A stretch of DNA of 64,000 bases from Pseudomonas sp. HMWF032. GTDB taxonomy: Bacteria; Pseudomonadota; Gammaproteobacteria; Pseudomonadales; Pseudomonadaceae. Where the stretch lies: the NCBI RefSeq assembly GCF_003060885.1, contig NZ_QAIG01000005.1, positions 1,363,090 to 1,427,089 on the forward strand, given 5' to 3'. The notes below the pieces were generated by a model that made no database searches, was not told the DNA's origin, and was given only the letters and a program-made list of their open reading frames with translations. Positions within the stretch are counted from its first letter, which is position 1; each line of letters opens with the position of its first letter. Shown piece by piece: positions 15,178 to 64,000 of this stretch. Made by a program: the position numbers and the translations under genes.

Positions 15178-15209
15178 GGCGTACAGGCACAAGCCTGTGC
15201 GCCTTTTTT
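15178..15209 (+). terminator. Intrinsic terminator of phaJ4
   Basis: An 11-bp stem GGCGTACAGGC / GCCTGTGCGCC (one G-T wobble) with loop ACAA, followed by a run of seven T. It starts 18 bp after the phaJ4 stop. Confidence 0.88.
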
Positions 15210-15293
15210 ATGGCATTTTCAGCGCGCTCGATCACGGCATGCCAGGCGGTTTAAGGCATACTCGGCAACGTCCTTCCGGTGTGGATTTTCTGC

Positions 15294-17021
15294 ATGCATC
15301 CTCTGACCCGTCTGGCTCCACTGAGCCTCGCCCTGTTGTTGGTCGCCTGCGGCGATGGCGAACCCTTGTTACCAGCAAATGCCGTGCTGCCGGATGGCGG
15401 GCGCTACCGTGGCGAAGTGGTCAATGGCTTGCTGCAAGGCCAGGGACGCCTGGATTACAGTGACGGCAGCTACTATGCAGGGCTGTTCAAAGATGGACAG
15501 TTCAATGGCCCCGGCGAATGGCACAGCAAACACGGTGAAACCTATACCGGCGAGTTCCAGAACGGCGACTTCCACGGTCAAGGCAGCCTGAGTTACAGCG
15601 ACGGCAGCCGCTACGAAGGCGGCTTTGCCAGCGGCACCCCCAGCGGTGAAGGCCACCTGCAGAGCCAGGATCTGGAATACCGGGGCGAGTTCAGCAAGGG
15701 CCATTACCAAGGCCTGGGCAAGCTGCAATGGAGCAACGGCAGCAGCTTTCAGGGTCAGTTCCGCAAGGGCGAACCGCACGGCCAAGGCGTGATGATCGAC
15801 GCTGAAGGCAACGAGTTCGTCGGCACTTTCAATAACAGCCAGCTCAACGGCCAGGGCAGTTTCAAGAGTGCCGACGGCGACCTCTACAGCGGCCAGTTCC
15901 GCGACAACCAATTCCACGGCAAGGGCCGCTATCAAAGTGCCGACGGCGAAGTCTGGAGCGGACGCTTCGAGGACGGCAGCCTGACCGGCAAAGGCGAGTT
16001 CAAGGGCAGCGACGGCAGCCATTACCGTGGCCAGTTCAGCGACTGGCGCTACCACGGCGAAGGTCGACTGAACCTCGCCGATGGCAGCCTCTATGAAGGC
16101 CACTTTGCCTACGGCCAATACCACGGTAACGGCAGCCTGACCCTGGCCGATGGCAGCCAGCAACGTGGTACCTGGCAGCGTGGCCGACTGACTCGCGATG
16201 CCGATGGCCAAGCCATCCCCGACAGCCTGGCCGTCGGCTTGCTGGAGCAAGGACGGTTGCTCGATGCCGCCATTGCCAACCTGCCAGCCTCGACCCCAGC
16301 CATCGAACTCTACGCCCTGACCCTGGCCGGCGACGGCAAGCAGAGCGTGTTCATGCGCGAGGCCGACTATGTCGGTAACCTGCTGCAGGAACGCTTCGCC
16401 GCCCATGGCCTGATCACCCTCGTCAACCACCGTGACCACCTGGCGGATCGCCCGCTGGCCACCAGTGCCAGCCTGGGTCGCAGCGTTCAGGCCCTGGCCG
16501 AACGCAGCGGCAAGGAAGACCTGATCTTTATCTACCTGACCAGCCACGGCTCAGCCCAGCATGAGCTGAACCTTGACCAGCCGCGCCTGCAGCTCAACGA
16601 CCTGCCCGCCAGCGAACTGGCCACCCTGCTCGAACCGCTGAAAGATCGGCACAAGGTGCTGGTGATCTCTGCCTGCTACTCCGGCGGTTTTATCCCCAAA
16701 TTGCAGGATGACAAGACCCTGGTGATCACCGCTGCACGGGCCGACCGCGTGTCCTTCGGTTGCTCGGAGGAAAACGACTTCACCTACTTCGGCCGCGCGC
16801 TGTTTGCCGAAGCGCTGCAGCAAACCGACGACCTGCAGCGCGCCTTCAAGCTGGCCCAGGCCAGCGTTGCCGAACGCGAAAAGGCCGACGGTTTCGAAGC
16901 CTCCGAACCGCAGATCTGGCCAGCCAAGGCGGTGCTCGCCCAGTGGCGCAAGCTGCGCGAACAGCAGGCTGAGCGCGCCCTGAACAATGCACTTGAGGCG
17001 CAATCAGCGGTCAACCCCTAA
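15294..17021 (+). CDS. Lipoprotein with about 11 MORN repeats and a C13 (legumain-type) protease domain
   Basis: 575 residues from the ATG at 15294 (a GTG 15 bp upstream is in frame). The signal ends in a lipobox LLVACG. About eleven consecutive 23-residue MORN repeats follow (pattern YxGxFxxGxxxGxGxxxxxDGS), to about residue 300. The C-terminal part is a caspase-hemoglobinase-fold peptidase: [10 protein letters not shown] gives His418 and [12 protein letters not shown] gives Cys461, the His/Cys dyad of family C13. It is presumably anchored in the periplasm or outer membrane. MORN arrays usually bind lipid or protein partners. No substrate is evident. The position matches P. aeruginosa PA4016 by memory. 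Confidence 0.87.
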
Positions 17022-18801: not shown

Positions 18802-21357
18802 ATGAAGCCCCCATCAATCCGCCTTCTCGCCAGCCTGCTGTTGATTATCGACCTGGCGCTCGTGTCGGCAGTTGAGGCCCAGCCACGCTCGGTCAAAGTG
18901 GGCGTCTACGACAACGAACCCAACTATCTTCTGGAACAGGACGGCAAACTGTCTGGGATCTTTGGCGACTTGCTCAATGAGATCGCCCAACAGGAAGGCT
19001 GGCAATTACTGCCGCAGCCCTGTGATTGGCAGCAGTGCCTGGACCAGTTGAGCAGTGGCAAGATCGATCTGTTGCCGGACGTGGCGTATGACGAAAGCCG
19101 CAATAAGGTATTCGACTTTCACACGCACCCCGCGCTGCTCAGCTGGTCGCAACTCTACAGCAGCAAGAATCTCAACCTCAGGTCGATACTCGACCTGCAT
19201 GAGAGGCGCATTGCCGTACTCAGAAGCTCAGTGCAGGCGCAATATCTGCGTGAGTTGCTCCACAGTTTCGGCCTGAAAGCCGACCTGATCGGGGTACAAA
19301 GCCTTACTCAAGGGTTCGAACTGGTCGCCAAGGGGCAAGCCGATACGGTGGCCGCCAACCAGCGCTTTGGCGACGTCCTTGCACCGAGTTACCAACTGCA
19401 CAGCGCTCCAATCATGTTCCAGCCCACCCAACTGTTTTATGCCACGCGCAAAGGACAGAACGGCGAACTGCTCGCAGCCATTGATCAGCACCTGTCCAAC
19501 TGGCAAAAATCGCCCACCTCAATCTGCTGCCAGACACTGCAACGCTGGGGAGGCGAACACAGCGCCCACCTGATCCCAGCAGCCGCATGGTGGGGGCTGG
19601 CGATTCTGCTGGCACTACTGACTGCGGCTCTGGGTGGAGCGCTGCTGCTGCGCCGCCAGGTCCGCGAGAAGACCCAGCACCTGCTGGACAGCGAACAGCG
19701 CCTGAACACCATCCTCGACAGCGTCGAAGCCTACATCTATATCAAGGATGTCCAGCTGCGCTACCAGTACGTCAATCGCAAAGTCTGCGAACTGTTTGGC
19801 CTGACCTTAAAACAGGTGATTGGTAAAACCGACGACGAGTTCTTTGACCTCGATACTGCATCCAACCTTCACGAAAACGATCGCCGCGTGCTGGAGTTGG
19901 GCGAACGGGTACACACCGAAGAAGTCAATCGCAGCCTGGACGGTGGAAACGAACATACTTTTCTCTCCATCAAATTGCCGCTGCGCGATAACCATGGCGA
20001 CATCTACGCCTTGTGCGGCATCTCCACGGACATCACCGCCCACAAGAAAAATCTGGAGAAGATCAATCAACTGGCCTTCTATGACCCGCTGACCGGCCTG
20101 CCCAACCGGCGCCTGTTGCTGGATCGCTTGCAGCAGGCACTGGCCAAGCATGCCCGCGGGCTTCAGCAGGGCGCGCTGCTGTTCATCGACCTGGATAACT
20201 TCAAATACCTCAATGACACCCTGGGACACGACGTGGGTGATCAATTGTTGCAACAGGTCGCTCTACGCTTGAGCAACCATGTACGCGCTCAGGACACCCT
20301 GGCACGCCTGGGCGGTGATGAGTTCGTGCTGATGCTGGAGGGATTGAACCTGATACCGGCGCAGGCGGTCACGCAGGTGGAATATGTCAGTAACAAGATC
20401 ATAACCGCCCTGGCGCAACCCTATAACCTGTCAGGCCACAACCATGTCAGTACCGCCAGCGTGGGCGTTACGCTGTTTCCCGGCGACCACAGCACGGTGG
20501 ATGAGGTGCTCAAACGTGCCGACCTGGCCATGTACCAGGCCAAGAGCGCCGGGCGCAATGCCGTACGCTTCTTTGACCCGCAGATGCAGGCCGCCGTAAA
20601 TGCCCGCGCCAGCCTGGAGCGCGACCTGCGACAAAGCCTGGAGGAGCAGCGGTTCATCCTGCACTACCAACCCTTCTTCAACGAGCACGGCCAATTAATC
20701 GGCGCCGAAGCGTTGGTGCGCTGGCAGCATCCCCAACGCGGCCTGGTGATGCCAGGTGACTTTATCCCCCTGGCCGAAAGCACCGGACTGATCCTGCCAC
20801 TGGGCCGTTTAATCCTGCGCCAGGCGTGCGAGCAGCTGGTGGTTTGGGCCGCTGACCCGCTGTTAAGTGAGCTGTGCCTGGCCATCAACATCAGCGCCAA
20901 ACAATTTCATCACCCTGAATTTGTCACCTATATCCGGGCGGCCCTCGAAAAGAGCGGTGCGGATCCGCTACGCCTGATACTGGAGCTGACAGAAAGCCAG
21001 CTGGTCGAGGATATCGAACCGCTGATCAGCAAAATGAGCCAGCTCAAAGCCCAAGGTATCCGCCTGGCATTGGATGACTTTGGTGCCGGCTACTCATCAC
21101 TCAATTACCTCAAACGCCTGCCTCTCGATCAGCTGAAAATTGATCGCAGTTTTGTCCAAGACCTCCTGACCGAGCCCAGCGACGCCGCCATCGTGCGCAC
21201 CATTCTGGCGCTCGGCGCCAACCTTAATTTAGCGGTCACCGCCGAAGGTGTGGAAACCCAGGCGCAATACGAAGCGCTGCTGCAAATGGGTTGCCGGCAA
21301 TTCCAGGGTTACCTGTTTGCCAAGCCGGGGCCTGCCAGTGAAATTGCACGCTCGTAG
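18802..21357 (+). CDS. Periplasmic-sensor c-di-GMP enzyme: SBP-PAS-GGDEF-EAL
   Basis: An 851-residue inner-membrane protein. After a signal peptide, residues about 30-250 form a bacterial extracellular solute-binding (SBP_bac_3) sensor. A transmembrane helix follows at about 255-283, then a PAS domain (about 300-415), a GGDEF domain and an EAL domain. The GGDEF motif is intact and carries the product-inhibition I-site RAQD five residues ahead. The EAL domain keeps EALVRW, DDFGAGYSSL, KIDRSF and AEGVET, so both synthesis and hydrolysis of c-di-GMP are chemically possible. The SBP domain suggests an amino-acid or amine ligand. It ends next to the amine-catabolic genes on the opposite strand. 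Confidence 0.93.
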   Translation: MKPPSIRLLASLLLIIDLALVSAVEAQPRSVKVGVYDNEPNYLLEQDGKLSGIFGDLLNEIAQQEGWQLLPQPCDWQQCLDQLSSGKIDLLPDVAYDESRNKVFDFHTHPALLSWSQLYSSKNLNLRSILDLHERRIAVLRSSVQAQYLRELLHSFGLKADLIGVQSLTQGFELVAKGQADTVAANQRFGDVLAPSYQLHSAPIMFQPTQLFYATRKGQNGELLAAIDQHLSNWQKSPTSICCQTLQRWGGEHSAHLIPAAAWWGLAILLALLTAALGGALLLRRQVREKTQHLLDSEQRLNTILDSVEAYIYIKDVQLRYQYVNRKVCELFGLTLKQVIGKTDDEFFDLDTASNLHENDRRVLELGERVHTEEVNRSLDGGNEHTFLSIKLPLRDNHGDIYALCGISTDITAHKKNLEKINQLAFYDPLTGLPNRRLLLDRLQQALAKHARGLQQGALLFIDLDNFKYLNDTLGHDVGDQLLQQVALRLSNHVRAQDTLARLGGDEFVLMLEGLNLIPAQAVTQVEYVSNKIITALAQPYNLSGHNHVSTASVGVTLFPGDHSTVDEVLKRADLAMYQAKSAGRNAVRFFDPQMQAAVNARASLERDLRQSLEEQRFILHYQPFFNEHGQLIGAEALVRWQHPQRGLVMPGDFIPLAESTGLILPLGRLILRQACEQLVVWAADPLLSELCLAINISAKQFHHPEFVTYIRAALEKSGADPLRLILELTESQLVEDIEPLISKMSQLKAQGIRLALDDFGAGYSSLNYLKRLPLDQLKIDRSFVQDLLTEPSDAAIVRTILALGANLNLAVTAEGVETQAQYEALLQMGCRQFQGYLFAKPGPASEIARS

Positions 21358-31285: not shown

Positions 31286-31585
31286 CTAAAGGCCGCCGCT
31301 GACACCCAGGCTAATGCCCATTGCAGTGGCCAGGGACAACGGTAATAGCAAGGTGTCGAGTAAGGCGCTGACCGGCAGATCGGCCGCCGGATATGCCGGG
31401 GCCTCGGCGCCGAAACGGTCCGTGGCACAACAGCCGCCTTGCAGCGCATACAGGTTCAGCCGTGTGCCGGCGTACACCACGGGCGCATCGGGCTTGGCCG
31501 CATCCAGGGTGCGCACGGTGGCACAACCGCTCAGCGCCAGGCTCACGCACAGCCCCACAAGCGCAAGTCGCAACCATTTAGTCAT
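31286..31585 (-). CDS. YceK/YidQ-family lipoprotein (DUF1375)
   Basis: A 99-residue predicted lipoprotein: signal [20 protein letters not shown] with lipobox LSGC, then [16 protein letters not shown] and [12 protein letters not shown], typical of the family. Function is unknown. The ATG sits inside the last codons of ubiX (8-bp overlap), so it is translationally coupled to ubiX; I preferred it to an upstream start that would lie deeper in ubiX. Confidence 0.8.
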
Positions 31586-32210
31586 CGGGGCTGATCTGAT
31601 GGTGCTCACCCCAACGCGGCAGCATGTCTTGGGGAATGTTCAGGCAGTTGAGAATCCGCGCCACGACAAAATCGATCAGGTCATCGATGGTTTGCGGCTG
31701 ATGATAAAAGCCCGGCGCCGCCGGCAGAATGGTCGCACCCATGTTCGACAGTTTGAGCATGTTATCCAGATGGATGCTGGAGAACGGTGCCTCGCGCGGC
31801 ACCAGAATCAACTGACGCCGCTCTTTGAGGGCCACGTCGGCGGCACGTTCAATCAGGTTGTTGCACGCACCATGAGCAATCGCCGAGAGCGAGCCGGTGC
31901 TGCACGGCACCACCACCATCGCGGTCGGAGCCCCAGAGCCAGAGGCCGCCGGGGCCATCCAGTCTTCTTTACCAAAGACGCGAATCTGCCCCGGCGCGGC
32001 GCCGGTGTACTCGCTCAAGAATGCCTGCATGGCCTGCGGTTTGCTCGGCAGGCTGACATCGGTTTCAGTGGCCATCACCAGCTGCGCGGCCTTGGAAATC
32101 AGAAAGTGCACCTCGCGCTCTTCCTGCACCAGGCAGTCGAGCAGGCGCAGGCCGTACTGAGCGCCAGAAGCGCCGGTCATGGCCAGGGTGATTCTCTCAG
32201 GTCCAGACAT
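31578..32210 (-). CDS. ubiX: Flavin prenyltransferase UbiX
   Basis: A 210-residue enzyme that prenylates FMN to prenyl-FMN, the cofactor of the UbiD decarboxylase in ubiquinone synthesis. Typical signatures are [42 protein letters not shown] and [13 protein letters not shown]-like [13 protein letters not shown]. The start follows the mpl stop without a gap, with the Shine-Dalgarno GGAGG inside the end of mpl. It shares this mpl-ubiX order with P. aeruginosa. Confidence 0.95.
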
Positions 32211-33563
32211 TTATGCCTCCAGGGCCGCAGCCAGCTTGCCATGCAAACCGCCAAAACCGCCGTTGCTCATCACCACCACCTGAGTACCCGGCGCGGCTTC
32301 AGCCTTGACCCCGGCGATGATCGCCTCCAGGGAATCGCACACCTGCGTCGGCACCGTCGAGGCGGCGACCGTGCCGGCCAAGTCCCAGCCCAGGTTTGGC
32401 GGCGCGTACCAGTACACCGAGTCCGCCTGCACCACGGATTCCGGCAGGCCATCACGGTGCGCGCCGAGTTTCATCGAGTTGGAGCGCGGCTCGACGATGG
32501 CAATCAGTTTGGCGTCGCCGATGCGTTTGCGCAGGCCATCCAGGGTGGTGGCAATTGCCGTCGGGTGATGCGCGAAGTCATCGAAAATGGTCACGCCGTT
32601 GACCTCGGCCACCTTCTCCATGCGCCGCTTGGCGTTGATAAAGCCGCACAGCGCGGCGATGCCCAGCTCCGGCACCACGCCGACATGCCGCGCCGCCGCC
32701 AGCACGGCCAAGGCATTGGCGACGTTGTGCTGGCCGGTCAGCTGCCAGTCCACGGTGCCGGCAACCTTGCCCGCGAAACTCACCTCGAAGCGCGAGCCGT
32801 CGGCGCTGAGCAGACGCGCCTGCCATTGGCCACCTTCGCCGGTGGTTTGCACCGGGGTCCAGCAACCCATCTCGATCACCCGCTTGAGTGCCGGTTCGGT
32901 GGTCGGATGAATGATCAGGCCGTCGCCTGGAATGGTGCGCACCAGATGGTGGAACTGCCGCTCGATTGCTGCCAGATCCGGGAAGATGTCCGCATGATCG
33001 AACTCCAGGTTATTCAGGATGGCGGTGCGCGGGCGGTAATGGACGAACTTGCTGCGTTTGTCGAAGAAGGCGCTGTCGTACTCGTCGGCTTCCACCACAA
33101 AGAACGGCGTGCCGCCCAGGCGCGCGGAGATGCCGAAGTTCTGCGGCACGCCGCCAATCAAAAAGCCCGGGCTCATGCCCGCATGTTCCAGCACCCAGGC
33201 GAGCATGCTCGAACTGCTGGTTTTGCCGTGGGTGCCGGCCACCGCCATCACCCAACGGCCCTGCAACACATGGTCGGCCAGCCACTGCGGGCCACTCACG
33301 TAGGGCAGACCTTTGTTCAGCACATATTCCACCGCCGGGTTACCGCGCGACAGCGCGTTACCGACCACCACCAGATCCGGCGCGGGGTCGAGTTGTGCGG
33401 CGTCATAGCCTTGAGTCAGTTCGATGCCCTGCGCTTCCAGCTGGGTGCTCATGGGCGGGTAGACGTTGGCGTCGGAACCGGTTACGCGGTGGCCGAGTTC
33501 CTTGGCCAAGACGGCCAGCGAGCCCATAAACGTGCCGCAGATGCCGAGAATATGGATATGCAT
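32211..33563 (-). CDS. mpl: UDP-N-acetylmuramate:L-alanyl-gamma-D-glutamyl-meso-diaminopimelate ligase
   Basis: A 450-residue Mur-ligase-family enzyme that recycles murein tripeptide by attaching it to UDP-MurNAc. It starts MHIHILGICGTFMGSLAVLAKELGH (UDP-binding). The ATP P-loop is AVAGTHGKTSSSSML and the Mpl-specific EADEYDSAFFDKRSKF motif is clear. The ATG at 33563 was chosen; a longer reading upstream lacks similarity. It overlaps nothing and is followed immediately by ubiX. Confidence 0.96.
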   Translation of the reverse strand: MHIHILGICGTFMGSLAVLAKELGHRVTGSDANVYPPMSTQLEAQGIELTQGYDAAQLDPAPDLVVVGNALSRGNPAVEYVLNKGLPYVSGPQWLADHVLQGRWVMAVAGTHGKTSSSSMLAWVLEHAGMSPGFLIGGVPQNFGISARLGGTPFFVVEADEYDSAFFDKRSKFVHYRPRTAILNNLEFDHADIFPDLAAIERQFHHLVRTIPGDGLIIHPTTEPALKRVIEMGCWTPVQTTGEGGQWQARLLSADGSRFEVSFAGKVAGTVDWQLTGQHNVANALAVLAAARHVGVVPELGIAALCGFINAKRRMEKVAEVNGVTIFDDFAHHPTAIATTLDGLRKRIGDAKLIAIVEPRSNSMKLGAHRDGLPESVVQADSVYWYAPPNLGWDLAGTVAASTVPTQVCDSLEAIIAGVKAEAAPGTQVVVMSNGGFGGLHGKLAAALEA

Positions 33564-33713
33564 GATGTACCTTGAAGGCGGGTCAGAACCTGGAAACAGG
33601 CCGGATAAAAACTCGCCGCAGATTATCACAGCCTCCCCGCCCATTTGCGCAGGTTGGATCGGGCGGTGATCCGTTGCGGTGCGCAGTTGCAGCGCCCAAG
33701 CGCGTACCCGACC

Positions 33714-53788: not shown

Positions 53789-55438
53789 TCAGCGCAGAAT
53801 GATCTGGGCCAACACCTGGCCGCCGTCCTGATCAGGCACAACATCCTTGAGGGTGTTGGCGGCCGTCAGGCTCAGACTCAGGTGCCGGCCCCAATTGAAA
53901 TTGAGTCCGACGCCGACGCTCTGCAGGTCGATGTCGGTGATGCCCAGCTCCATGGCACGGCCATAGTCGAAGAACACAAAAGGCTGCCAGCGCTGGCTTG
54001 GGCGCCACCAGGCTTCCAGGTTGAGCGTTGCCCCCTGGGGCGATGAAATGACACCGGGGTCATACCCGCGCACACTGCTGATGCCGCCAAACTGGTAGAA
54101 CAGTGAAGCCGGCAACTCTTCGGTATTGTTGGCGAATTGCCAGCCAAAACGCCCGACCAGCTCAAACTGCTCACCCAGGGCCCGCGACAGATAACCTTGC
54201 CCGTTGAGCAGTGCGTAGCTGCCCGTATCACCACTCACCGCGTTGTCCACACTGGCTTGGCGCACACGCTGCTCATACCGCAGGTACCAGGGCGCAGCCC
54301 GGTATTCGAGCTGGCCACGCAGAAAGGCCTCGCGGGTATCCACTTCACTGAGGGTGAAACTGTCGACGGTGTTCTCCGAACGCTGCTGGTTATAGCCCAA
54401 ACCCGCTTGCAGCAGCCAGTTGTCATCCAGCCACCAGGGCTGGTCAAACCCCAGGGTGTAGGTGCGCGACTCCCCTTCGATATTCAGTGCCGCCAGCGGC
54501 CCCTCCTCCACGGTCATGCTGTTCCCGCCCACCTCGGCATAGGCAACCCCATTCCAGCGGTTCAGCGGCCGGCTGTAGCGCAGACTGGCATATTGCGAAC
54601 CTGCGGTTGTTACCAGCAGCAGGTTGAGGGCATCGGCCACGGCGGTGGGCGAAAACCAGGTGAGGCTGCCGCCATACTGCTCACGGCCAGTGCTTTCATT
54701 GCCATAGTTGTTGGCAAACAGGCTCCATTGCAGCGTTTCAGGCTCGAACGCCTCCAGCTCAACCGATGTAGTGCCAAAGCGAGCGCCGGGGGCCAGGCTG
54801 GCCGTCACTTGAGGGCCAGGCGTGGTGGCATTGAAACGCTGAATCGCACTCATCAGCGCCGGACTGTCCAGGGTGCTGCCCGGCTGCACATTCAGGCGTT
54901 GAGCATAGAAACGCTCACCGACCTTACGCGTCTCTCCCTTCCAGGTGACCTGATCGACCTTCGCCTCGACCAGCACAATGCGCAACTGACCGTCTACCAG
55001 GCTTTGCGCCGGGATCAATGCCCGTGCCGTCAGCTGGCCACGCGCTTCGTAGAGCGCATTGATCTCACGCAGCAGCTGATTCAATTCAGCAAAGCCAATT
55101 TCACGGCCGACATACCCCTGGGCCAAGGACTCCAACTGCTCGCGAGGCAGATAGACCGAGGCATTGAAGGCGATACCCGTCAGCGCAAACCGCTCCCCCT
55201 GATCCGGCAGAACCTGATCAGCAGGCGCATCACCGCGCAACGCCGGCACTTGCGTACGCCGGGCCCGCTCTTCGATACGCTGCTGTTGCTGAATCTGCTC
55301 CACCTGCTCGCGTTGCAGGTTCGGGTTAACCAGCCCCGGTACCTGCGGGGCGATAGGCTGCGCCGCCTGTGCGTGGATGCTGGCCAGCACGACCAACATC
55401 AGCCAGGTAGCACGCGGGGTCGTTATCACAGGGACCAA
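53789..55438 (-). CDS. TpsB outer-membrane transporter (ShlB/FhaC/HecB family)
   Basis: A 549-residue Omp85-superfamily channel that secretes the partner TpsA. A signal ending IHAQA precedes a helix-rich linker (REQVEQIQQQQRIEERARR), two POTRA domains (about 75-225) and a 16-strand beta-barrel with the conserved loop-6 motif SSVRGYDPG. A TTG at 55438 has GAGGTGG at good spacing, while a GTG at 55429 overlaps the tpsA stop (GTGA); either is possible. Order tpsA-tpsB-sapC on the minus strand. Confidence 0.92.
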   Translation of the reverse strand: MVPVITTPRATWLMLVVLASIHAQAAQPIAPQVPGLVNPNLQREQVEQIQQQQRIEERARRTQVPALRGDAPADQVLPDQGERFALTGIAFNASVYLPREQLESLAQGYVGREIGFAELNQLLREINALYEARGQLTARALIPAQSLVDGQLRIVLVEAKVDQVTWKGETRKVGERFYAQRLNVQPGSTLDSPALMSAIQRFNATTPGPQVTASLAPGARFGTTSVELEAFEPETLQWSLFANNYGNESTGREQYGGSLTWFSPTAVADALNLLLVTTAGSQYASLRYSRPLNRWNGVAYAEVGGNSMTVEEGPLAALNIEGESRTYTLGFDQPWWLDDNWLLQAGLGYNQQRSENTVDSFTLSEVDTREAFLRGQLEYRAAPWYLRYEQRVRQASVDNAVSGDTGSYALLNGQGYLSRALGEQFELVGRFGWQFANNTEELPASLFYQFGGISSVRGYDPGVISSPQGATLNLEAWWRPSQRWQPFVFFDYGRAMELGITDIDLQSVGVGLNFNWGRHLSLSLTAANTLKDVVPDQDGGQVLAQIILR

Positions 55439-58400
55439 GAAGCCACCTCATCTCCTTCCAGCCGATCACCGGCCACATCGATATTGATACGGGTTTCCAC
55501 AGGCGCCTGACTCCAGGCGGGCACCCAGACACCATTCGACACCACCGTTGCAGCCAGACTATTGAGCAGGGACGCCAGACGTACCAGCGTCAGGCCGCTC
55601 GACAGGTGCTGCTCGGCAAAGCGCGCCGCAGAAATCCCCTGGTACGGGACACCGGTGCCGGCCTCACGGTTGATGCTGAAGTTCGGCACCACCACCTGAT
55701 GGGTCAACTTGCGGTGCAGTACATAGGCGCTGGTGTCAGACAGCAGGCTGCTCTGCTTGAGGCTGAAGGCTTTGTCCAGCTCGTACAGCTGCACATCGGC
55801 ATCGGCCATGTAAACCGGGCTGGCATTGTCCATGCGCACCCGTGCTTGCGGGGTGCGCAATTCAAGCCGATTGACTCCGCGTGCATCACGCAAATCCACC
55901 TGCGCCGCCGTGGTGTCGATCAGCGCGGCGGCCACATAAAGACGCGGAGCGGCGATGCTGGCAGCATCCAGACGCAACAACAGCGTGTCGGCAATCTGCT
56001 GATCGGCACGGCCTTGCACCCAGAGGTCCAGTTGACCGCTACCGGTGTGTCGTCCGTAGAGCTGCATGTCACGGCCATGCAAGTCCAGACGTTGACCAAT
56101 GGCCGCATCGGCGACCCGCACCAGATTCCCCGCCCACAGGCTCAGAGTCGGCGCCTCGGCCTGCTGCAGATGAATACTGGCAGCGTCTGAGCCACCGTGG
56201 CGAATGCCCGCACGCACCTGCACACCCTGTTCGGCGCGCAGCTGTGTACCCCGCACATCAAGCAGGCCATCAAGCAACGCCTGACCACTGGCCAGCAAAC
56301 GTTCGAAGAAGATGCCTTCATCGGCGGTCCAACGCTGATCACCTGCACTGCGGCTGGTGGCCACCCGAATCAACCCGCGCGAGAGCAGATCGATACGCTG
56401 ACTGGCAGCCAGATCGCCCAGCTGCAGGCGCGCGCCGGTCATGTCGATACGCCCATTGCGACTGTCCACCAGCGGCACCTCGATGCTGCCGGCTGCGCTC
56501 AGCAGAATGTCGCCGGCAATCGTGCGGCCTTCATACTGACCGCTGGAGCGGATGCGCTGACCAACGCGGATATCGCCCTTGCGTGCATTGAAGGTGATGT
56601 GGCCGCCCGCATCTACGGCTTGTCCAACCTGAATGGCATCTGCCAACCAACGCTGCTCTTCGCCACTGCGGCTGTTAGCAACAGTGATCTGCTCACCGGC
56701 CTGCAAATCGATACGCTGACTGGATGCCAAATCACCCAGTTGCAGGCGTGCACCTTCGACCTCAATACGCCCATTGAGGCTTTCCACCAGCGGCGTCTCG
56801 ATACTGCCGGAGGCGCTCAGCAGAATATTGCCTGCGACCGCCTGCCCCTCATACTGACCGCTGGAGCGGATGCGCTGACCGATGCGGATATCGCCTTGGT
56901 TGGCCTTGAGCGTGATGTGGCCACCGGCATCGATAAACTGCTCGATGTTGATCGCGGCGCCGGAAACGATGCTCAGGTTACGCCCGGCCCTCACGCCCTC
57001 CAGGTCAACCTTGCCGGCAATTTCAAAACGCAGGTCACGGCCGGCTTCGGCAATACCGGTGATATTCAGGTCGCCGCCCAGGCCCACCACCAAATCACGT
57101 CCGGCTTTGAGCGAGTAGGTGCCCCCGAACAGCACCTTGGGCATGCTCAGGTCACCGTTGGCGATGATGCCAACGTCCCGCTTGGCCTCCACCACCTGCC
57201 CGGTGATATTGCCGTGGCCCTGCAGGAAGTTGCCATTGGCCTGCAGGAAGATGTCCTCCTTGAGGCTCTGCGCACGGCCAAAGCGCAGGTTGCGGCCCAT
57301 CATGCGCAGCTCCAGATCAGCCTCGGCATTGCCACCCAGCACATCGCCGTCGGCATGCACCAACAGGTTACCGGTGGTTTTCAGATGGGCCGCCAGCAAG
57401 CCGGCCGTATCATTCGGGTCCATCGCGGTGCCAAAGCGGATGTTGCCCAGATGGCCTGCGGCCGTGGTGAGGCTCATGTCGCCGCCGCTGCGTCCCTCAA
57501 GCACACTCAGATCGCCCTGGGTATGCGCCTTGAGTTCACCCGCCGCGCTCACCCGGCCGAGCTGGGCACTGCCCGCCGACAGGTCAATCCGTTGCAGACG
57601 GCTGTGCAGCTCATCGACCGCCAAATGCCCGCCAGCATTCAGGCGCAGAGCACCGCTGGTACTTTCCAACCGGCCAAAGGTCCCGCTGCCTATGTTGACA
57701 CTGACATCACCCTGCACCAGCGCACTGTCACCCAGCCAGTGACCCGCGCCCTGCATGTTCAGCGTTCGCCCAACATCCAGCGAGCCAACGCGCAGCGTGC
57801 CTTGAGCGCCAGTGTGCTGCAGGTCAGCATGACCGCTCACCGTCGCACGCTGCAGCCACATGCCCTGAGCCACGTGCACCAACAGGTCACCGTCAATGGC
57901 CAGATCGGCCAGTTGCGATGCGCTGCCTGCCCGCAGCTGCGAGGTCTTCGCCTGCAAGCGCTGCAGCGCCAGATCACCCGTCAGCTCAAGGTCAGCCTCT
58001 GCACCCACGACCAGGTGACCAATCTGCGCGGCAGTGCCCTGCAAGGTCAAACGGCCTGATGTGGTCAGACGGCCCAGTTGCAGCGCGTCATGCAGCTGCA
58101 TGCTCACCGCGCCACCCAAGTTGGCCTCGGTGATCTCGCTGCGACCTGCTTTCAAGTTCCAGCCGCCGGTGGCATCCAGTTGGCCCAGGTTCAGCGCACC
58201 ATTGAGCGTGTGCTGCACCTGACCGTTGACCGTGGCGTTGCCGATGCGCGCCGAGTCGGCCTGCAGGGTCCATTTCGCGCCGGCAGTCAGGCGGTCTTGC
58301 GCCAGTGCACCACTCAGTTGCTGGTCAACGAAGCCTTGGATATCAGCATTGGTGACCGTGGCCGAGGTGCCGCGCAGAGTCCAGCCTTGTCCTGCTGTCA

Positions 58401-61400
58401 ACGCACCCAACTGCAGCGCGTCATGCAGTTGCATGCTCACCGCGCCACCCAGGTTGGCCTCGGTGATCTCGCTGCGACCTGCTTTCAAGTTCCAGCCGCC
58501 GGTAGCGTCCAGTTGGCCCAGGTTCAGCGCACCATTGAGCGTGTGCTGCACCTGACCGTTGACCATGGCGCTGCCAATGCGTGCCGAATCGGCCTGCAAG
58601 CTCCAGTTACCGGCACGGGTCAGCCGGTCGATTTGCACTGCACCGCTGTGCACCTGCTCCAGCGCGCCGGCAAAACTCGCCTCGCCCAATACCGCGGAAG
58701 CACTGCGCAACGTGCCGAAGCCCGCTACATTGAGCGTGTCGACACGCAGGGCATCACTCAGATTGACCGTCAGATTGCCGCTACGACTATCCAAGGTGCC
58801 GACGGTCAGGGCTTCACCGCTCAGTTCCAGATCACGCTCGGCACGCAGTGCCGTCAGTTCGAGCAGACCGCTGCCCTGCAGGTGAATGTCCCCACCACTG
58901 CTGACCCGATCCAGGCGCAGATTACCCAAGCTGCGCAGCCACTGATGGCTCGCACTGTCCAGCGTACCGCCCTGAATACCAGCCGCCAGGCTGAGGAACA
59001 GCCCACCGGTGGCACTGTTGACCTGCAGGTGCCGGGCCGACAGCTCAAGCGGTTGCAGCGGGCTGCCAATATCACCCAGGCTGGACAGACGCAGCAGACC
59101 GCTGGCATGCCAGCGCGTCGACGGTGCCCCTGCACTGAGGCGTGCGGCCTGAATATCCAGATCACCGTTGGCGACGCTGACGTTGCCCAGGCGCACGTCG
59201 CCACCGCTGTTGAGCAGGACGCCCTTGTCGGCATTCAGGCTGCTGCCGGCACTGGCCAGCCAGTCGCCGCTGACGTCCGCCACTAAGCCGCCAAGCTGCC
59301 ACGCACCGCGCTGCTGCACCTCGCTGACTTGGCCCAGATCCAAGGTACCGTTTACGGCAACCGTGCCCAGACGCAGCACGCCCGGCTGACTGGCCGCGCC
59401 TTGCAGGCCGCCGAGCCAGGCATCAGCGCCTAGGTCCAGATTGATCTGTTGAGACACCAGCCCTGTGCCCAGTTGCAAGCGCTGCCCGCTGGCCCCGGTC
59501 AGGCCGCTGACCTTGAGGTTGATCTGCCCGCCCAGCAGGTTTTCACCCAGCTGACTGGCGGCGCGCAGGTTACCCAGCACCTGCAGCGACAGACTGTCCA
59601 CGCCCGTCAGACGCTCCACGGCGAGATCGCCGTGTTGCACCAGGTTGAGCAGCCGTGCCCGTGCGGTGAGGTCGCCAGTGACCGCCATATTCAGCGCCTG
59701 AGCGTTGCCGATACTGCCGCCGGCCGCCTCCAGGGTGACGTCATGGCCACGAATGACCACCTTGTCGCCATTGCTGCTGACGATGCTGCCATCAGTTTTC
59801 AGGCTGATGCTGCGCCCGTTGAGCGCCTGCACGTTGAAGTCCTGCTCGCCACCGAGGAACAGGTCCGTTTGCGCCGTGGCGGTCAGGGTTCCGCCGGCCT
59901 TGACGTTAACGTCATCGCGCTGAATCACGCGGATCAGCAGCGGGTTATTGGCATCAAAAACGATGTCATCCCGCTCAGCAGACGCCAGCGCCGCGCGCTG
60001 TTCGTTGCTCAACGTAGCGGCCTGGCTCAGGTCGATGACAATCGCATCGGCTTTCAAGCGGCCAATGCGCGAGGCCTCCAGGGTGACGTTGCGACCCTCG
60101 ATGTTGTTGGCCTCCTTGACCACCGAACCGCCATCGTCGCGGCGCAACAGGTTGGCGGAAATCGAGTAGCGCAGTTGCTCATCCGTCCATTTGGCCGTCT
60201 GCTCCAGACTGGCCAGCTCGCTGCCCTGCAGTTGGTAAGTGAAGTTCGCATCAAAACTGCCCGCGCCATACAGCGTATGCAGGGCTTGGTAGTCCGCGAT
60301 TCGCCGCGCCTCCTCGGTGGCGATCTGCTGCACGCTCCAGCCCAGGCTGGTGAGCTGGTTGCGCTGCCCTTCGCTGAAGGCGGCCTGCTGGGCATCGAAG
60401 CTCAGCGCCCCGCCCTGGCGCATGCGCCAGTACTGCGCATACCGCTGCTGCCCGGCCTTGACCAGCGCATCACGCTGTTGCGCCAGCGCTTCATCGGCGG
60501 CACTGCCGGTCAGGCCCATGCTGGCCCAAAGGCGCTGCAGCTCACTCAGGGCGCGGTTGTCGTAGCTCAGTTCGCTGTTGCCGTCATACAGGTCACCGGC
60601 ACTGACCTTAAGCCAGACATCGCCACCGGCCTTGACCTGATCCAGCCAGAGGTTGCCACCCACTTCCTCCAGGTGGATATCATTCACGGCGGTCGCCTGC
60701 AGCAAGCCTTGGGCACTGTTGCCCGAATCAATGCGCAGCGCATTGCCGGCGGTGCCAATGCTGCCGTGGCTGGAGGTCAGGTTAAGGGTCTTGCCCGTCA
60801 CCACCATCCCGGCCTGGCCGAGAATGTCCCCCTGGGCACTGAGCGAGAGGTGATGACCGCCGGCACTCAGGCGTGTCAGGTTGACACCGCCATTGAGGGC
60901 CTTGAGGTCGATCGAGCCGGCCTGGCTGGAAGCGCCCAGGCTGCGGGTGGCCTCGACCCGCAAGGCCTGTTCGGCGCTGCCGATTGACTGCCCGGCCTGC
61001 AGGTCGAGGTCACGCGCGGCAATCACCAGGCTGTCATTGTTCTGCCGCAGCGCTCCGTCGACCCTCAGCGATGTGCTGCCGCTGAGGTTGTACAACGAGC
61101 CACGCAGCGTCACATCCCCCTTGGCCATCAGGTCGATCAGCCCACTCTCGCTGCCGATAAAGCTGATGTTGATGGGGCGATCAGCCTGCACCGCATAGCG
61201 GTTGATTTCTTTTGTGCCCGAGCTGAACACTTTGGTCAGGGTGGTGCGGTAAACCTGGCACCAAATGAAATGGGTCTTGCAGTACCCACCAAGGAACTCA
61301 TTGATTTTGACCGGATCAGCGGTCGTGTAAGTCTCGTTGACCCGGGAAATTTCACCGGCCCCAAGGCCGACACGGAACATTTGCAACAGCGCGTTATCCG

Positions 61401-64000
61401 GGTCCTGATCCGCCAGCTGCAAGGCCGCATTCTGATAGATCGCGTTGAGCGTCGCGTCCTCGGCAAAGCGGTGGTTACGGATGCGCTCTTTGTCGATCCG
61501 GTACAGGCCTTGGCTGTTGCCCATGTACTCGGCACCGGGAATGGCTGTGCTCTGGCCCTTGACCACTTTTTCCCAGGCCAGGGTGCCATCACCGGTCGGG
61601 ATAAAGCCCCAGAAGGCATCCCAGTACTCTTGCCGGGTGGTGGTGATGCTGTCGTCGCGCCCGGTCAGCCAGACGTAGGAGCGCCCGGCCGTGGTGCTGT
61701 AGCTGGTATCACGGCCATTGCTGCTGCCTTTGTGGATCAGCGGACCGTTGCTCCAGCCTTCATAACGCTGCACCTGATCGCCCACGCGGGTGTACACCGT
61801 CGACCAGAGCCGATCGCCGCCAATCTGCTGCCCCTGTTCGCCACGTCCCAGATCGTTGATGCGCAGGGTGCCTTCCACGCCGCGGCCCAGGTCCAGCCCG
61901 GACAATTCCAGATGGCGCGTGGTGTTATTGGTGATGTGCACCTGACTGAAGCCGTCGAGCACCTTGAGTTGGCCATTGCCGGTGCTGAGGATGTGCCCGG
62001 TCAGCTCCATGTAACCGCCGCCCACCTGCACCTGATCGAGCACGATGCTGTTGCTGTCGTAATCCCAGGCATACCCCAGGGTGCCGGTACGGGCATCGGT
62101 CTGCACCAGTTGCAGGCGGTTGCCAACGGCTTCTGCACGGCGACCGTCGAGATTGGCAAAGCGCGACTCATCAATGGTCGCCCGCCAATCCGCGACACCG
62201 CTCTGGATCAGGCCATTGATGTTCAGGTACAGCGCATTGATCACCACGTTCTGCCCAGCCACCGTGGCCGAACCATTGCCTTGAACCGTGCTGCCGTTGT
62301 TGTTGAATGCCGGATCACCACCAATATGCACAAAGGCCTTGGGGTTGTTCAGGACAAAGTCCTGACCGGCGCTGAGGCTCAGTTTCTGCGCGCGGATATC
62401 GGCATTGGCGTAGATGCTGCCGTATTTGGCAGTCAGTTCGATCTCGCCGCGTTTGTTCAGCAGGCTGCCCGCGACGTAGATATCGGCCGCGGGCATGCTC
62501 AAGCCAGAAGCATCCTTGATGTTGTCAGCCGGGTTGCGCAGGTTCTGCACCACAATGCGCGGCGCGGCCGAGTTTTCCGCCACGGTCACGCTGCTGAAGG
62601 CCGCGTTGCCACTGCCCGGTTTGTTGGCGGCCTGAATGCTCGCATTGCCGGACATCTTGGCGCCGTTGAAGAGCAACTGGCCGCCCAGGTGATCCGGGAT
62701 TTCCAGCCCCTTGAGGCTAAGGAATGCCTCGCTGTGGTTGATGATTTCGATCTTCGCATCGCCCGGTGCATTGAGCTTGCCACTGCCGATCAGGGCATCG
62801 CCTTGCACCAGAATATTGCCGGGCTTGGCCAATATCGGATCAATTTCCAACAGCCAGATTTTCAAGCCTTCCGGCAGGGTGCCCTCGCCGGAAACAGCAC
62901 CGGGGTTATTGGCGACCGTACCGCCCATCTGCTCATACAGCTTGCTCAGGGTTTTGTTCAGCAGGGTACGCTCAGCTTCAAAAGCCGCCCGCTCAACCGC
63001 CGAAATGCCGTAGCTGGCTAAGCGGTTATTGAGCTCCTGCAGGCGCTGCGTCAGCAACTGTGAGTATTCACTTTGCTTAAGGCTCCAAGTGATGCCATCA
63101 CTGACTTCCTGCATCACCGGAACGACGGTAAGCGTGCCTTGGGTCGAGGCATTGAGGCTGGCCGGGTTGACCTCCTGACCATTGAGCAGGTACTTCAGGC
63201 CACTGATGACCAACTTGCGCTGACTGTAAACGCCCGCATCCAACTGACCATCAATACGCACCAGGCCTTGGCCACGGTTCAGGGTGCTGCCGCCGTTGAT
63301 GTCCAGCGACACCTGCCCGACGATGGCACCCAGCAGGTCCGCGGCGGCCTGACGATAAAGGTCACGGCCCACGCCCTTACCAGTGAGTACGCCATGCCCT
63401 TGCCCGGCATAGGCATGAATGTCACCCACGCTGCGCAGCCGACTACCGGCGTTCACGTGCAGGTTACTGGTGCGCAGGTACTCTGCGGCGGCTTCCGGGT
63501 CTGTCACCACCGGGAAGGCGGTGTTGTTCCACAGGTCAGTGCGCGCCGTGAGCTCGGCGCGGTTCATCGCGCCATCGAGCCCATAACCGGCCTGCAAGCG
63601 CAGATCGCCATAGGCGAACAGCGCCGCATTGGCATTTACGCGCGCCACATAGTCGGCTTTGACCCGCGCCAGACTGCTGCCGCTGGCCGCACCGGCTGCG
63701 CCGAACGTCTTGGCGTTAGCCTGACTGTCGATGACATAAGCACCGCTGGCAGCCAGCACCAGATCGCCGATGCTGTAGAGGTCGGCACGCTCCCCAACGC
63801 GCACCTCGGCGTTGCTCTTGAGCACATCGATGCGGGATTCGGCACGGGCAATGCTGATCGCACCGCCACTGTCGAGTTTGACCCGGTCATAGCCATCAAT
63901 ACGGTTGAAGGCCTGAATTTCCAGCTTTTTCGGGTTGCGCCAATCGCCGTCGACACGCAGCAACACGTCGTTGCCGACCAGACTGCTGGTGTCCAGGGAG
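55426..64000 (-). CDS. Giant filamentous-haemagglutinin-type TpsA adhesin (5' end outside window)
   Basis: At least 2,857 residues; the frame is open at the right edge, so the signal peptide and probably the TPS secretion domain are missing. The rest is beta-helix-type sequence rich in Gly/Asp/Asn. Two repeat arrays stand out: 37-residue units (58073-58604) and 53-residue units doubled to 106 (56312-56947). A non-repetitive region near 61200-61700 holds the only two Cys I find (CKTHFIWC). A helical insert (about 60150-60600) interrupts the helix. The C terminus has no CdiA-type toxin signature. LktA-like or FHA-like filamentous adhesin is likely. Start is not visible. Confidence 0.9.
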   Translation of the reverse strand, partial: SLDTSSLVGNDVLLRVDGDWRNPKKLEIQAFNRIDGYDRVKLDSGGAISIARAESRIDVLKSNAEVRVGERADLYSIGDLVLAASGAYVIDSQANAKTFGAAGAASGSSLARVKADYVARVNANAALFAYGDLRLQAGYGLDGAMNRAELTARTDLWNNTAFPVVTDPEAAAEYLRTSNLHVNAGSRLRSVGDIHAYAGQGHGVLTGKGVGRDLYRQAAADLLGAIVGQVSLDINGGSTLNRGQGLVRIDGQLDAGVYSQRKLVISGLKYLLNGQEVNPASLNASTQGTLTVVPVMQEVSDGITWSLKQSEYSQLLTQRLQELNNRLASYGISAVERAAFEAERTLLNKTLSKLYEQMGGTVANNPGAVSGEGTLPEGLKIWLLEIDPILAKPGNILVQGDALIGSGKLNAPGDAKIEIINHSEAFLSLKGLEIPDHLGGQLLFNGAKMSGNASIQAANKPGSGNAAFSSVTVAENSAAPRIVVQNLRNPADNIKDASGLSMPAADIYVAGSLLNKRGEIELTAKYGSIYANADIRAQKLSLSAGQDFVLNNPKAFVHIGGDPAFNNNGSTVQGNGSATVAGQNVVINALYLNINGLIQSGVADWRATIDESRFANLDGRRAEAVGNRLQLVQTDARTGTLGYAWDYDSNSIVLDQVQVGGGYMELTGHILSTGNGQLKVLDGFSQVHITNNTTRHLELSGLDLGRGVEGTLRINDLGRGEQGQQIGGDRLWSTVYTRVGDQVQRYEGWSNGPLIHKGSSNGRDTSYSTTAGRSYVWLTGRDDSITTTRQEYWDAFWGFIPTGDGTLAWEKVVKGQSTAIPGAEYMGNSQGLYRIDKERIRNHRFAEDATLNAIYQNAALQLADQDPDNALLQMFRVGLGAGEISRVNETYTTADPVKINEFLGGYCKTHFIWCQVYRTTLTKVFSSGTKEINRYAVQADRPINISFIGSESGLIDLMAKGDVTLRGSLYNLSGSTSLRVDGALRQNNDSLVIAARDLDLQAGQSIGSAEQALRVEATRSLGASSQAGSIDLKALNGGVNLTRLSAGGHHLSLSAQGDILGQAGMVVTGKTLNLTSSHGSIGTAGNALRIDSGNSAQGLLQATAVNDIHLEEVGGNLWLDQVKAGGDVWLKVSAGDLYDGNSELSYDNRALSELQRLWASMGLTGSAADEALAQQRDALVKAGQQRYAQYWRMRQGGALSFDAQQAAFSEGQRNQLTSLGWSVQQIATEEARRIADYQALHTLYGAGSFDANFTYQLQGSELASLEQTAKWTDEQLRYSISANLLRRDDGGSVVKEANNIEGRNVTLEASRIGRLKADAIVIDLSQAATLSNEQRAALASAERDDIVFDANNPLLIRVIQRDDVNVKAGGTLTATAQTDLFLGGEQDFNVQALNGRSISLKTDGSIVSSNGDKVVIRGHDVTLEAAGGSIGNAQALNMAVTGDLTARARLLNLVQHGDLAVERLTGVDSLSLQVLGNLRAASQLGENLLGGQINLKVSGLTGASGQRLQLGTGLVSQQINLDLGADAWLGGLQGAASQPGVLRLGTVAVNGTLDLGQVSEVQQRGAWQLGGLVADVSGDWLASAGSSLNADKGVLLNSGGDVRLGNVSVANGDLDIQAARLSAGAPSTRWHASGLLRLSSLGDIGSPLQPLELSARHLQVNSATGGLFLSLAAGIQGGTLDSASHQWLRSLGNLRLDRVSSGGDIHLQGSGLLELTALRAERDLELSGEALTVGTLDSRSGNLTVNLSDALRVDTLNVAGFGTLRSASAVLGEASFAGALEQVHSGAVQIDRLTRAGNWSLQADSARIGSAMVNGQVQHTLNGALNLGQLDATGGWNLKAGRSEITEANLGGAVSMQLHDALQLGALTAGQGWTLRGTSATVTNADIQGFVDQQLSGALAQDRLTAGAKWTLQADSARIGNATVNGQVQHTLNGALNLGQLDATGGWNLKAGRSEITEANLGGAVSMQLHDALQLGRLTTSGRLTLQGTAAQIGHLVVGAEADLELTGDLALQRLQAKTSQLRAGSASQLADLAIDGDLLVHVAQGMWLQRATVSGHADLQHTGAQGTLRVGSLDVGRTLNMQGAGHWLGDSALVQGDVSVNIGSGTFGRLESTSGALRLNAGGHLAVDELHSRLQRIDLSAGSAQLGRVSAAGELKAHTQGDLSVLEGRSGGDMSLTTAAGHLGNIRFGTAMDPNDTAGLLAAHLKTTGNLLVHADGDVLGGNAEADLELRMMGRNLRFGRAQSLKEDIFLQANGNFLQGHGNITGQVVEAKRDVGIIANGDLSMPKVLFGGTYSLKAGRDLVVGLGGDLNITGIAEAGRDLRFEIAGKVDLEGVRAGRNLSIVSGAAINIEQFIDAGGHITLKANQGDIRIGQRIRSSGQYEGQAVAGNILLSASGSIETPLVESLNGRIEVEGARLQLGDLASSQRIDLQAGEQITVANSRSGEEQRWLADAIQVGQAVDAGGHITFNARKGDIRVGQRIRSSGQYEGRTIAGDILLSAAGSIEVPLVDSRNGRIDMTGARLQLGDLAASQRIDLLSRGLIRVATSRSAGDQRWTADEGIFFERLLASGQALLDGLLDVRGTQLRAEQGVQVRAGIRHGGSDAASIHLQQAEAPTLSLWAGNLVRVADAAIGQRLDLHGRDMQLYGRHTGSGQLDLWVQGRADQQIADTLLLRLDAASIAAPRLYVAAALIDTTAAQVDLRDARGVNRLELRTPQARVRMDNASPVYMADADVQLYELDKAFSLKQSSLLSDTSAYVLHRKLTHQVVVPNFSINREAGTGVPYQGISAARFAEQHLSSGLTLVRLASLLNSLAATVVSNGVWVPAWSQAPVETRINIDVAGDRLEGDEVASWSL
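56312..56947 (-). repeat. Tandem 318-bp repeats (106 residues, 2 x 53) in tpsA
   Basis: Two in-frame copies, about 56312-56629 and 56630-56947. Both encode DAGGHIT, RSSGQYEG, GRI and LQLGDLASSQRIDL landmarks in the same order. A 318-bp offset is measured between matching GTGATGTGGCC sites at 56594 and 56912. Confidence 0.8.
58073..58604 (-). repeat. 333-bp (111-residue, 3 x 37) repeat in tpsA
   Basis: About 200 bp at 58073-58272 recur at 58405-58604 with about a dozen differences, offset 333 bp. The encoded 37-residue unit ends in DATGGW, AGQGW or AGAKW-like turns, so the array is a three-unit higher-order repeat. Confidence 0.85.

Follow-up and report, generated by a model that had tools for sequence, protein, structure and literature searches.

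A predicted lipoprotein gene in a conserved region of Pseudomonas

The window analyzed here is the whole stretch of 64,000 nucleotides from Pseudomonas sp. HMWF032, and all positions are counted from its first letter. On its forward strand, at 15294..17021, lies an open reading frame with a stop-free translation of 575 amino acids, in agreement with the coordinates given in a preliminary description of this DNA. From the reading frame, its Pfam matches, and the neighbors that it shares with Pseudomonas aeruginosa, we assign the gene as the orthologue of PA4016, encoding a MORN-repeat lipoprotein with a C13 peptidase domain. If translation began at an alternative GTG codon at 15279, the product would be five residues longer. 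Residues 1 to 18 form a putative lipoprotein signal peptide, which together with the candidate lipidation residue Cys19 occupies 15294..15350 (+ strand). Cys19 stands at the end of the lipobox LVAC, which had already been pointed out in the preliminary description, and is invariant in 56 Pseudomonas homologues; the residues that directly follow the cysteine are GD, GE, LS, and others. Signal peptide and lipobox were called by inspection and conservation rather than with a dedicated predictor, and together with the cysteine they predict that the PA4016-type protein is exported and lipidated as a bacterial lipoprotein.

In the Pseudomonadaceae, the C13 gene is flanked by a MaoC-like dehydratase gene on one side and a gene for an NAD(P)-binding oxidoreductase on the other; close to PA4016 in P. 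aeruginosa there are, in addition, genes of the LrgA/B type, UbiX, and Mpl. Between the MaoC gene and the C13 gene, a scan found a terminator-like hairpin with a T run (15187..15210, + strand), which is fitting for a separate transcription unit but is weak on its own, because three such hairpins were found where 2.2 were expected from shuffled sequence. No sigma-70-like promoter was found in the scan. In P. aeruginosa, PA4016 has been judged to be a single-gene unit (PMC3406104).

A C13 gene was present in all 149 sampled Pseudomonas genomes, each representing a species, with open frames of 547 to 770 amino acids where listed. This universality and the conserved housekeeping neighbors bear out the earlier assignment of the locus to a core-gene region. 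Outside the family the gene is scattered, as C13 matches were obtained in 30 of 274 genomes from the class, in 38 of 245 from the order, and in 61 of 398 in a sample of the phylum. Within the HMWF032 genome, the open reading frame at 15294-17021 is the sole C13 gene and also the sole MORN gene. An all-against-all comparison of neighbors at 21 distant or Pseudomonas loci (three further loci being left out) revealed no operon partner, in that no neighbor was held in common outside the Pseudomonadaceae; genome context therefore gives no partner for the protein. Two PLSDB "plasmid" records, L174 (CP109682.1, 425 kb) and L173 (CP040048.1, 658 kb), carry chromosomal-looking core stretches with the C13 gene and may be mislabeled pieces of chromosome.

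Three other reading frames of the window were noted. Near the C13 gene, the frame at 18802-21357 (+ strand) encodes 851 amino acids with SBP_bac_3 (extracellular solute-binding), PAS, GGDEF, and EAL domains, and its product is possibly a periplasm-sensing c-di-GMP enzyme. A 753-amino-acid frame at 31314-33575 (+ strand) had no Pfam match at an E value of 1e-10. The frame at 55426-63966 (- strand), of 2846 amino acids and cut or nearly cut by the end of the window, had no Pfam match at an E value of 1; its 846 N-terminal residues are repetitive and rich in Gly, Asn, and Ala, resembling an adhesin of the filamentous-haemagglutinin type.

Architecture of the repeat array and the protease domain

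The protein combines two well-defined modules. Pfam MORN (PF02493) was matched with an E value of 2.7e-38 (128 bits; cut-off, 22.5) and Pfam Peptidase_C13 (PF01650) with an E value of 2.8e-38 (132.3 bits; cut-off, 22.8), and with E values near 1e-38 neither match can be put down to chance. The MORN array covers residues 37 to 301 (15402..16196, + strand) according to Pfam, AlphaFold2, and Foldseek. About eleven repeats of 23 residues had been described for it; 11 whole repeats of 22 to 23 residues are indeed present, but the model has 12 beta-hairpin units, the last being a partial repeat. In a whole-protein AlphaFold2 model built from 56 Pseudomonas sequences (mean pLDDT, 90.6; pTM, 0.63), the pLDDT over the array is about 90 to 97, and a Foldseek search of the PDB with the MORN rod retrieved MORN1 structures, with a TM score of 0.89 by target length for Trypanosoma brucei MORN1. 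A helix at residues 311 to 328 (16224..16277, + strand; DSSP on the model) links the array to the protease domain, and because the pTM of the whole model is 0.63, the angle between rod and protease is uncertain. Within Pseudomonas, mean column identity is 84% in the C13 domain versus 69% in the MORN array.

The C13 peptidase domain comprises residues 337 to 545 (16302..16928, + strand), as delimited by Pfam PF01650, the domain model, and Foldseek. Its best-matching stretch to PF01650 is residues 404 to 542, with a weaker N-terminal piece in addition, and the roughly 30 residues that follow the domain to the end of the protein are modeled as one helix. When modeled alone, the domain reached a pLDDT of 88.4 and a pTM of 0.90, the least certain part being a loop at residues ~492 to 501, adjoining Cys490. 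Foldseek placed human legumain first among PDB structures (E value, 8.0e-9; TM score, 0.60; probability, 1.00), followed by caspases, while a profile of the domain run against PDB sequences matched legumains only. The caspase-hemoglobinase fold, on which the preliminary description had staked its reading beforehand, is thereby upheld in the predicted model.

The two predicted catalytic residues are His418 (TSHG; 16545..16547, + strand) and Cys461 (SACYSGG; 16674..16676, + strand). Translation and alignment place them exactly where the preliminary description had put them, in SHGS and ACYSGG contexts, and the motifs His418-Gly419 and Ala460-Cys461 follow each other in C13 order and are invariant or nearly so. 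Both residues are retained in every one of the 56 Pseudomonas sequences and in all 73 members of a diverse set of homologues, which includes some Pseudomonas and near relatives; homologues without them, which the preliminary description had named as counter-evidence, did not occur in either set. Also invariant in the 73 wider members are Phe353, Glu356, Asp409, Ser487, Gly489, Cys490, Glu529, Ser537, and Pro539. The invariance of His418, Cys461, Glu356, Asp409, and Cys490 argues for a working enzyme, and the C13 domain is most likely catalytically intact, as judged from these conserved residues.

Substrate pocket, second cysteine, and the reaction of the domain

We compared the S1 pocket of the domain with that of legumain, whose acidic residues are Glu187 and Asp231. 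In the HMMER alignment, Ser459 (16668..16670, + strand) takes the place of Glu187, and Ser is found there in 72 of the 73 homologues. Arg501 (16794..16796, + strand) aligns with Asp231 at a position that is variable in the family (R in 28 of the 73, D in 19, E in 9, Q in 7, K in 5, and others). Since both legumain S1 acids are replaced, asparagine specificity should not be assumed. Nineteen loci had suggested that Arg at the Asp231 place, a caspase-like, acid-cleaving arrangement, marks proteins of the MORN type, and Glu or Asp those with a membrane bundle. A larger set refuted this, as many MORN-type Pseudomonas proteins have Asp and some membrane types have Arg.

Instead of being a hydrolase, the domain could act as a transamidase or peptide ligase that links the end of a protein to an amine or a second chain, for instance to anchor or cross-link envelope proteins. 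Family C13 holds both hydrolases and transamidases, and GPI8 and the plant legumain-type ligases are models for such action. S1 residues unlike those of legumain mean that legumain-like hydrolysis cannot be taken for granted, and membrane tethering, which is found in every architecture (see below), would also suit a processing enzyme. However, the nearest solved relatives by both sequence and fold are the legumain hydrolases, and neither a sorting-signal substrate family nor a partner gene was seen adjoining the C13 gene. We therefore consider a ligase unlikely, if worth keeping in mind.

The second cysteine of the domain, Cys490 (SFGC; 16761..16763, + strand), is conserved in 73 of 73 members and has a counterpart in the alignment with human legumain. 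Exactly two cysteines are present in the C13 domain of all 56 Pseudomonas sequences and of all 73 diverse members. The two, Cys461 and Cys490, are both invariant across Alpha- and Gammaproteobacteria, and the SFGC motif with Cys490 lies on the side of the active site. A redox-gated envelope protease can be imagined on this basis: a Cys461-Cys490 disulfide would hold the enzyme off in the oxidizing periplasm, reducing conditions of the DsbC/DsbG type or envelope stress would release it, and the MORN or membrane-bundle module would set its location. Because an aligned Cys exists in human legumain, Cys490 may simply be an inherited residue of the fold, and we regard such gating as decidedly improbable.

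Less probable still is a pseudo-enzyme, in which the protease domain would serve as a binding fold. The legumain S1 acids are missing and no activity has been documented, both of which such a reading would accommodate. Pseudo-enzymes normally lose catalytic residues somewhere in a sequence set of this kind, however, and here all 56 Pseudomonas and all 73 diverse sequences keep His418 and Cys461 with their motifs unchanged, which makes this reading very unlikely.

Interchangeable N-terminal modules

Across the C13 subfamily, three kinds of N terminus precede the protease domain: a MORN array after a signal peptide or lipobox, a set of four to six hydrophobic segments, or a short leader or anchor. 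In a tree of 63 C13 domains, these architecture labels need nine changes, the minimum being two, and even when only well-supported branches are considered, at least two changes are required for the MORN type and at least three for the membrane type. The labels were assigned by simply counting motifs and scanning hydropathy, and individual assignments may therefore be wrong; the protein from locus L128, for instance, was classed as short with two segments, yet its sister at L131 is of the membrane type. The tree is taken as unrooted and is read without a direction of change. The constant element across the architectures is a protease tethered to a membrane, and the variable one is the tether.

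Other C13 proteins were encountered in the same searches. Outside the class, five short, signal-peptide-like C13 proteins (L124, L126, L129, L132, and L133) form a deep tree branch of their own and have the same two cysteines. Two gammaproteobacterial genomes (G177 and G218) gave six C13 matches each, to much larger proteins (about 500 to 1900 amino acids) with weaker scores, apparently a separate, expanded C13 group; one of the large proteins with a weak C13 match, L101, has beta-propeller-like repeats.

A presumed Abrp counterpart and a probable role in the envelope

A C13 protein of Acinetobacter baumannii (QCP22175.1) is 38% identical over 203 amino acids (E value, 4e-41) and falls in the same subfamily tree. 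Two genomes of the species each have a single C13 protein, 99% and 97% identical to this one, and because it is the only one there we presume it to be Abrp. According to reviews, A. baumannii that has lost abrp, annotated as "peptidase C13 family," grows more slowly and has a more permeable membrane, and complementation restores permeability. The same reviews conflict on the effect on drugs, two stating that loss lowers susceptibility and another that the wild type is the less susceptible. In one transcriptome study, peptidase C13 expression was a minor predictor of early polymyxin exposure. The altered membrane permeability on loss of abrp suggests a part in envelope upkeep more than one in immunity or virulence, provided that the two proteins correspond. 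The envelope role proposed in the preliminary description appears reasonable in this light, while the surface location, the link to envelope stress, and the activation on binding that it had added are guesses.

We consider it probable that the protein is an envelope-anchored C13 protease on a MORN platform that acts on an envelope protein in constitutive upkeep. After cleavage by signal peptidase II, it would be lipid-anchored at Cys19 on the periplasmic side of a membrane. The MORN array, shaped like a rod, may serve as a stand-off platform with a membrane or a protein as its binding partner, and it would hold the C13 domain, with His418 and Cys461 in a caspase-hemoglobinase fold, close to its substrate. 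The domain would most likely cut, and less likely transpeptidate, an envelope protein in the course of constitutive upkeep of the envelope.

A secreted or host-directed virulence protease was suggested by one transposon allele of PA4016, which in a delta-exoU background was attenuated in Caenorhabditis elegans; no attenuation was seen with a second allele, carried in the wild type, and the gene was not taken further by the authors (PMC3406104). With the worm-killing defect confined to one allele and background, and with the gene universal in a largely environmental genus, we rejected this lead and hold a virulence function to be highly improbable. A caspase-like protease of immunity or cell death, to which the caspase fold matches in Foldseek, a weak match to the NCBIfam model "caspase, EACC1-associated" (E value, 2.3e-8), and a weak match to a PADLOC caspase model (E value, 0.00094) might be held to point, is the least probable reading and was likewise rejected, since the NCBIfam score is far below its curated cut-off, the product is predicted to be an exported lipoprotein, and the gene, present in every sampled Pseudomonas genome among conserved housekeeping neighbors, is neither patchy nor in islands, as defense genes usually are.

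Comparison with known systems

The MORN rod is like that of eukaryotic MORN1 (Toxoplasma, Trypanosoma, and Plasmodium), both in structure (TM scores up to 0.89-0.90 by target length) and in sequence (E value, 1e-30). Unlike the PA4016-type lipoprotein, these are cytoplasmic scaffold proteins without a protease. No publication joining MORN repeats with C13 peptidases or legumain was found in a search of open-access literature, which makes this weak evidence. Caspases (family C14) share the overall fold in Foldseek; they differ in that the 575-amino-acid protein matches Pfam C13 and has no match to Peptidase_C14 up to an E value of 1. The Acinetobacter relative has a marginal C14 match (26.1 bits; cut-off, 21.4).

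Human legumain, an asparaginyl endopeptidase of MEROPS family C13, resembles the domain in fold, in the His and Cys motifs, and in the second Cys, at 15 to 17% identity. It differs in having a C-terminal inhibitory prodomain, which is absent from the PA4016-type protein, and in its acidic S1 residues, in place of which Ser459 and Arg501 are found here; it also lacks the lipid anchor and MORN array. To our knowledge, the C13 enzymes of animals and plants have been studied in detail, those of bacteria hardly at all.

The closest known system is PA4016 itself, annotated as a hypothetical protein or peptidase C13. The link to it had been drawn in the preliminary description and is confirmed: PA4016 has 579 amino acids with MORN repeats and a C13 domain, shares 68.5% identity over this domain, and likewise has MaoC and oxidoreductase genes as neighbors, with no difference of substance seen. 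The gene is ordinary within its family, but it is architecturally unusual and a neglected core gene, whose product looks like an active envelope cysteine protease without an assigned function. The C13 protein of A. baumannii has the same TSHG, SACYSG, and SFGC motifs; in contrast, it carries an N-terminal membrane-spanning bundle instead of a lipoprotein signal and MORN array. With one protease domain on interchangeable tethers, and with abrp probably encoding the membrane-bundle version, the comparison suggests a testable common role for these proteins, namely, envelope proteolysis that sets permeability.
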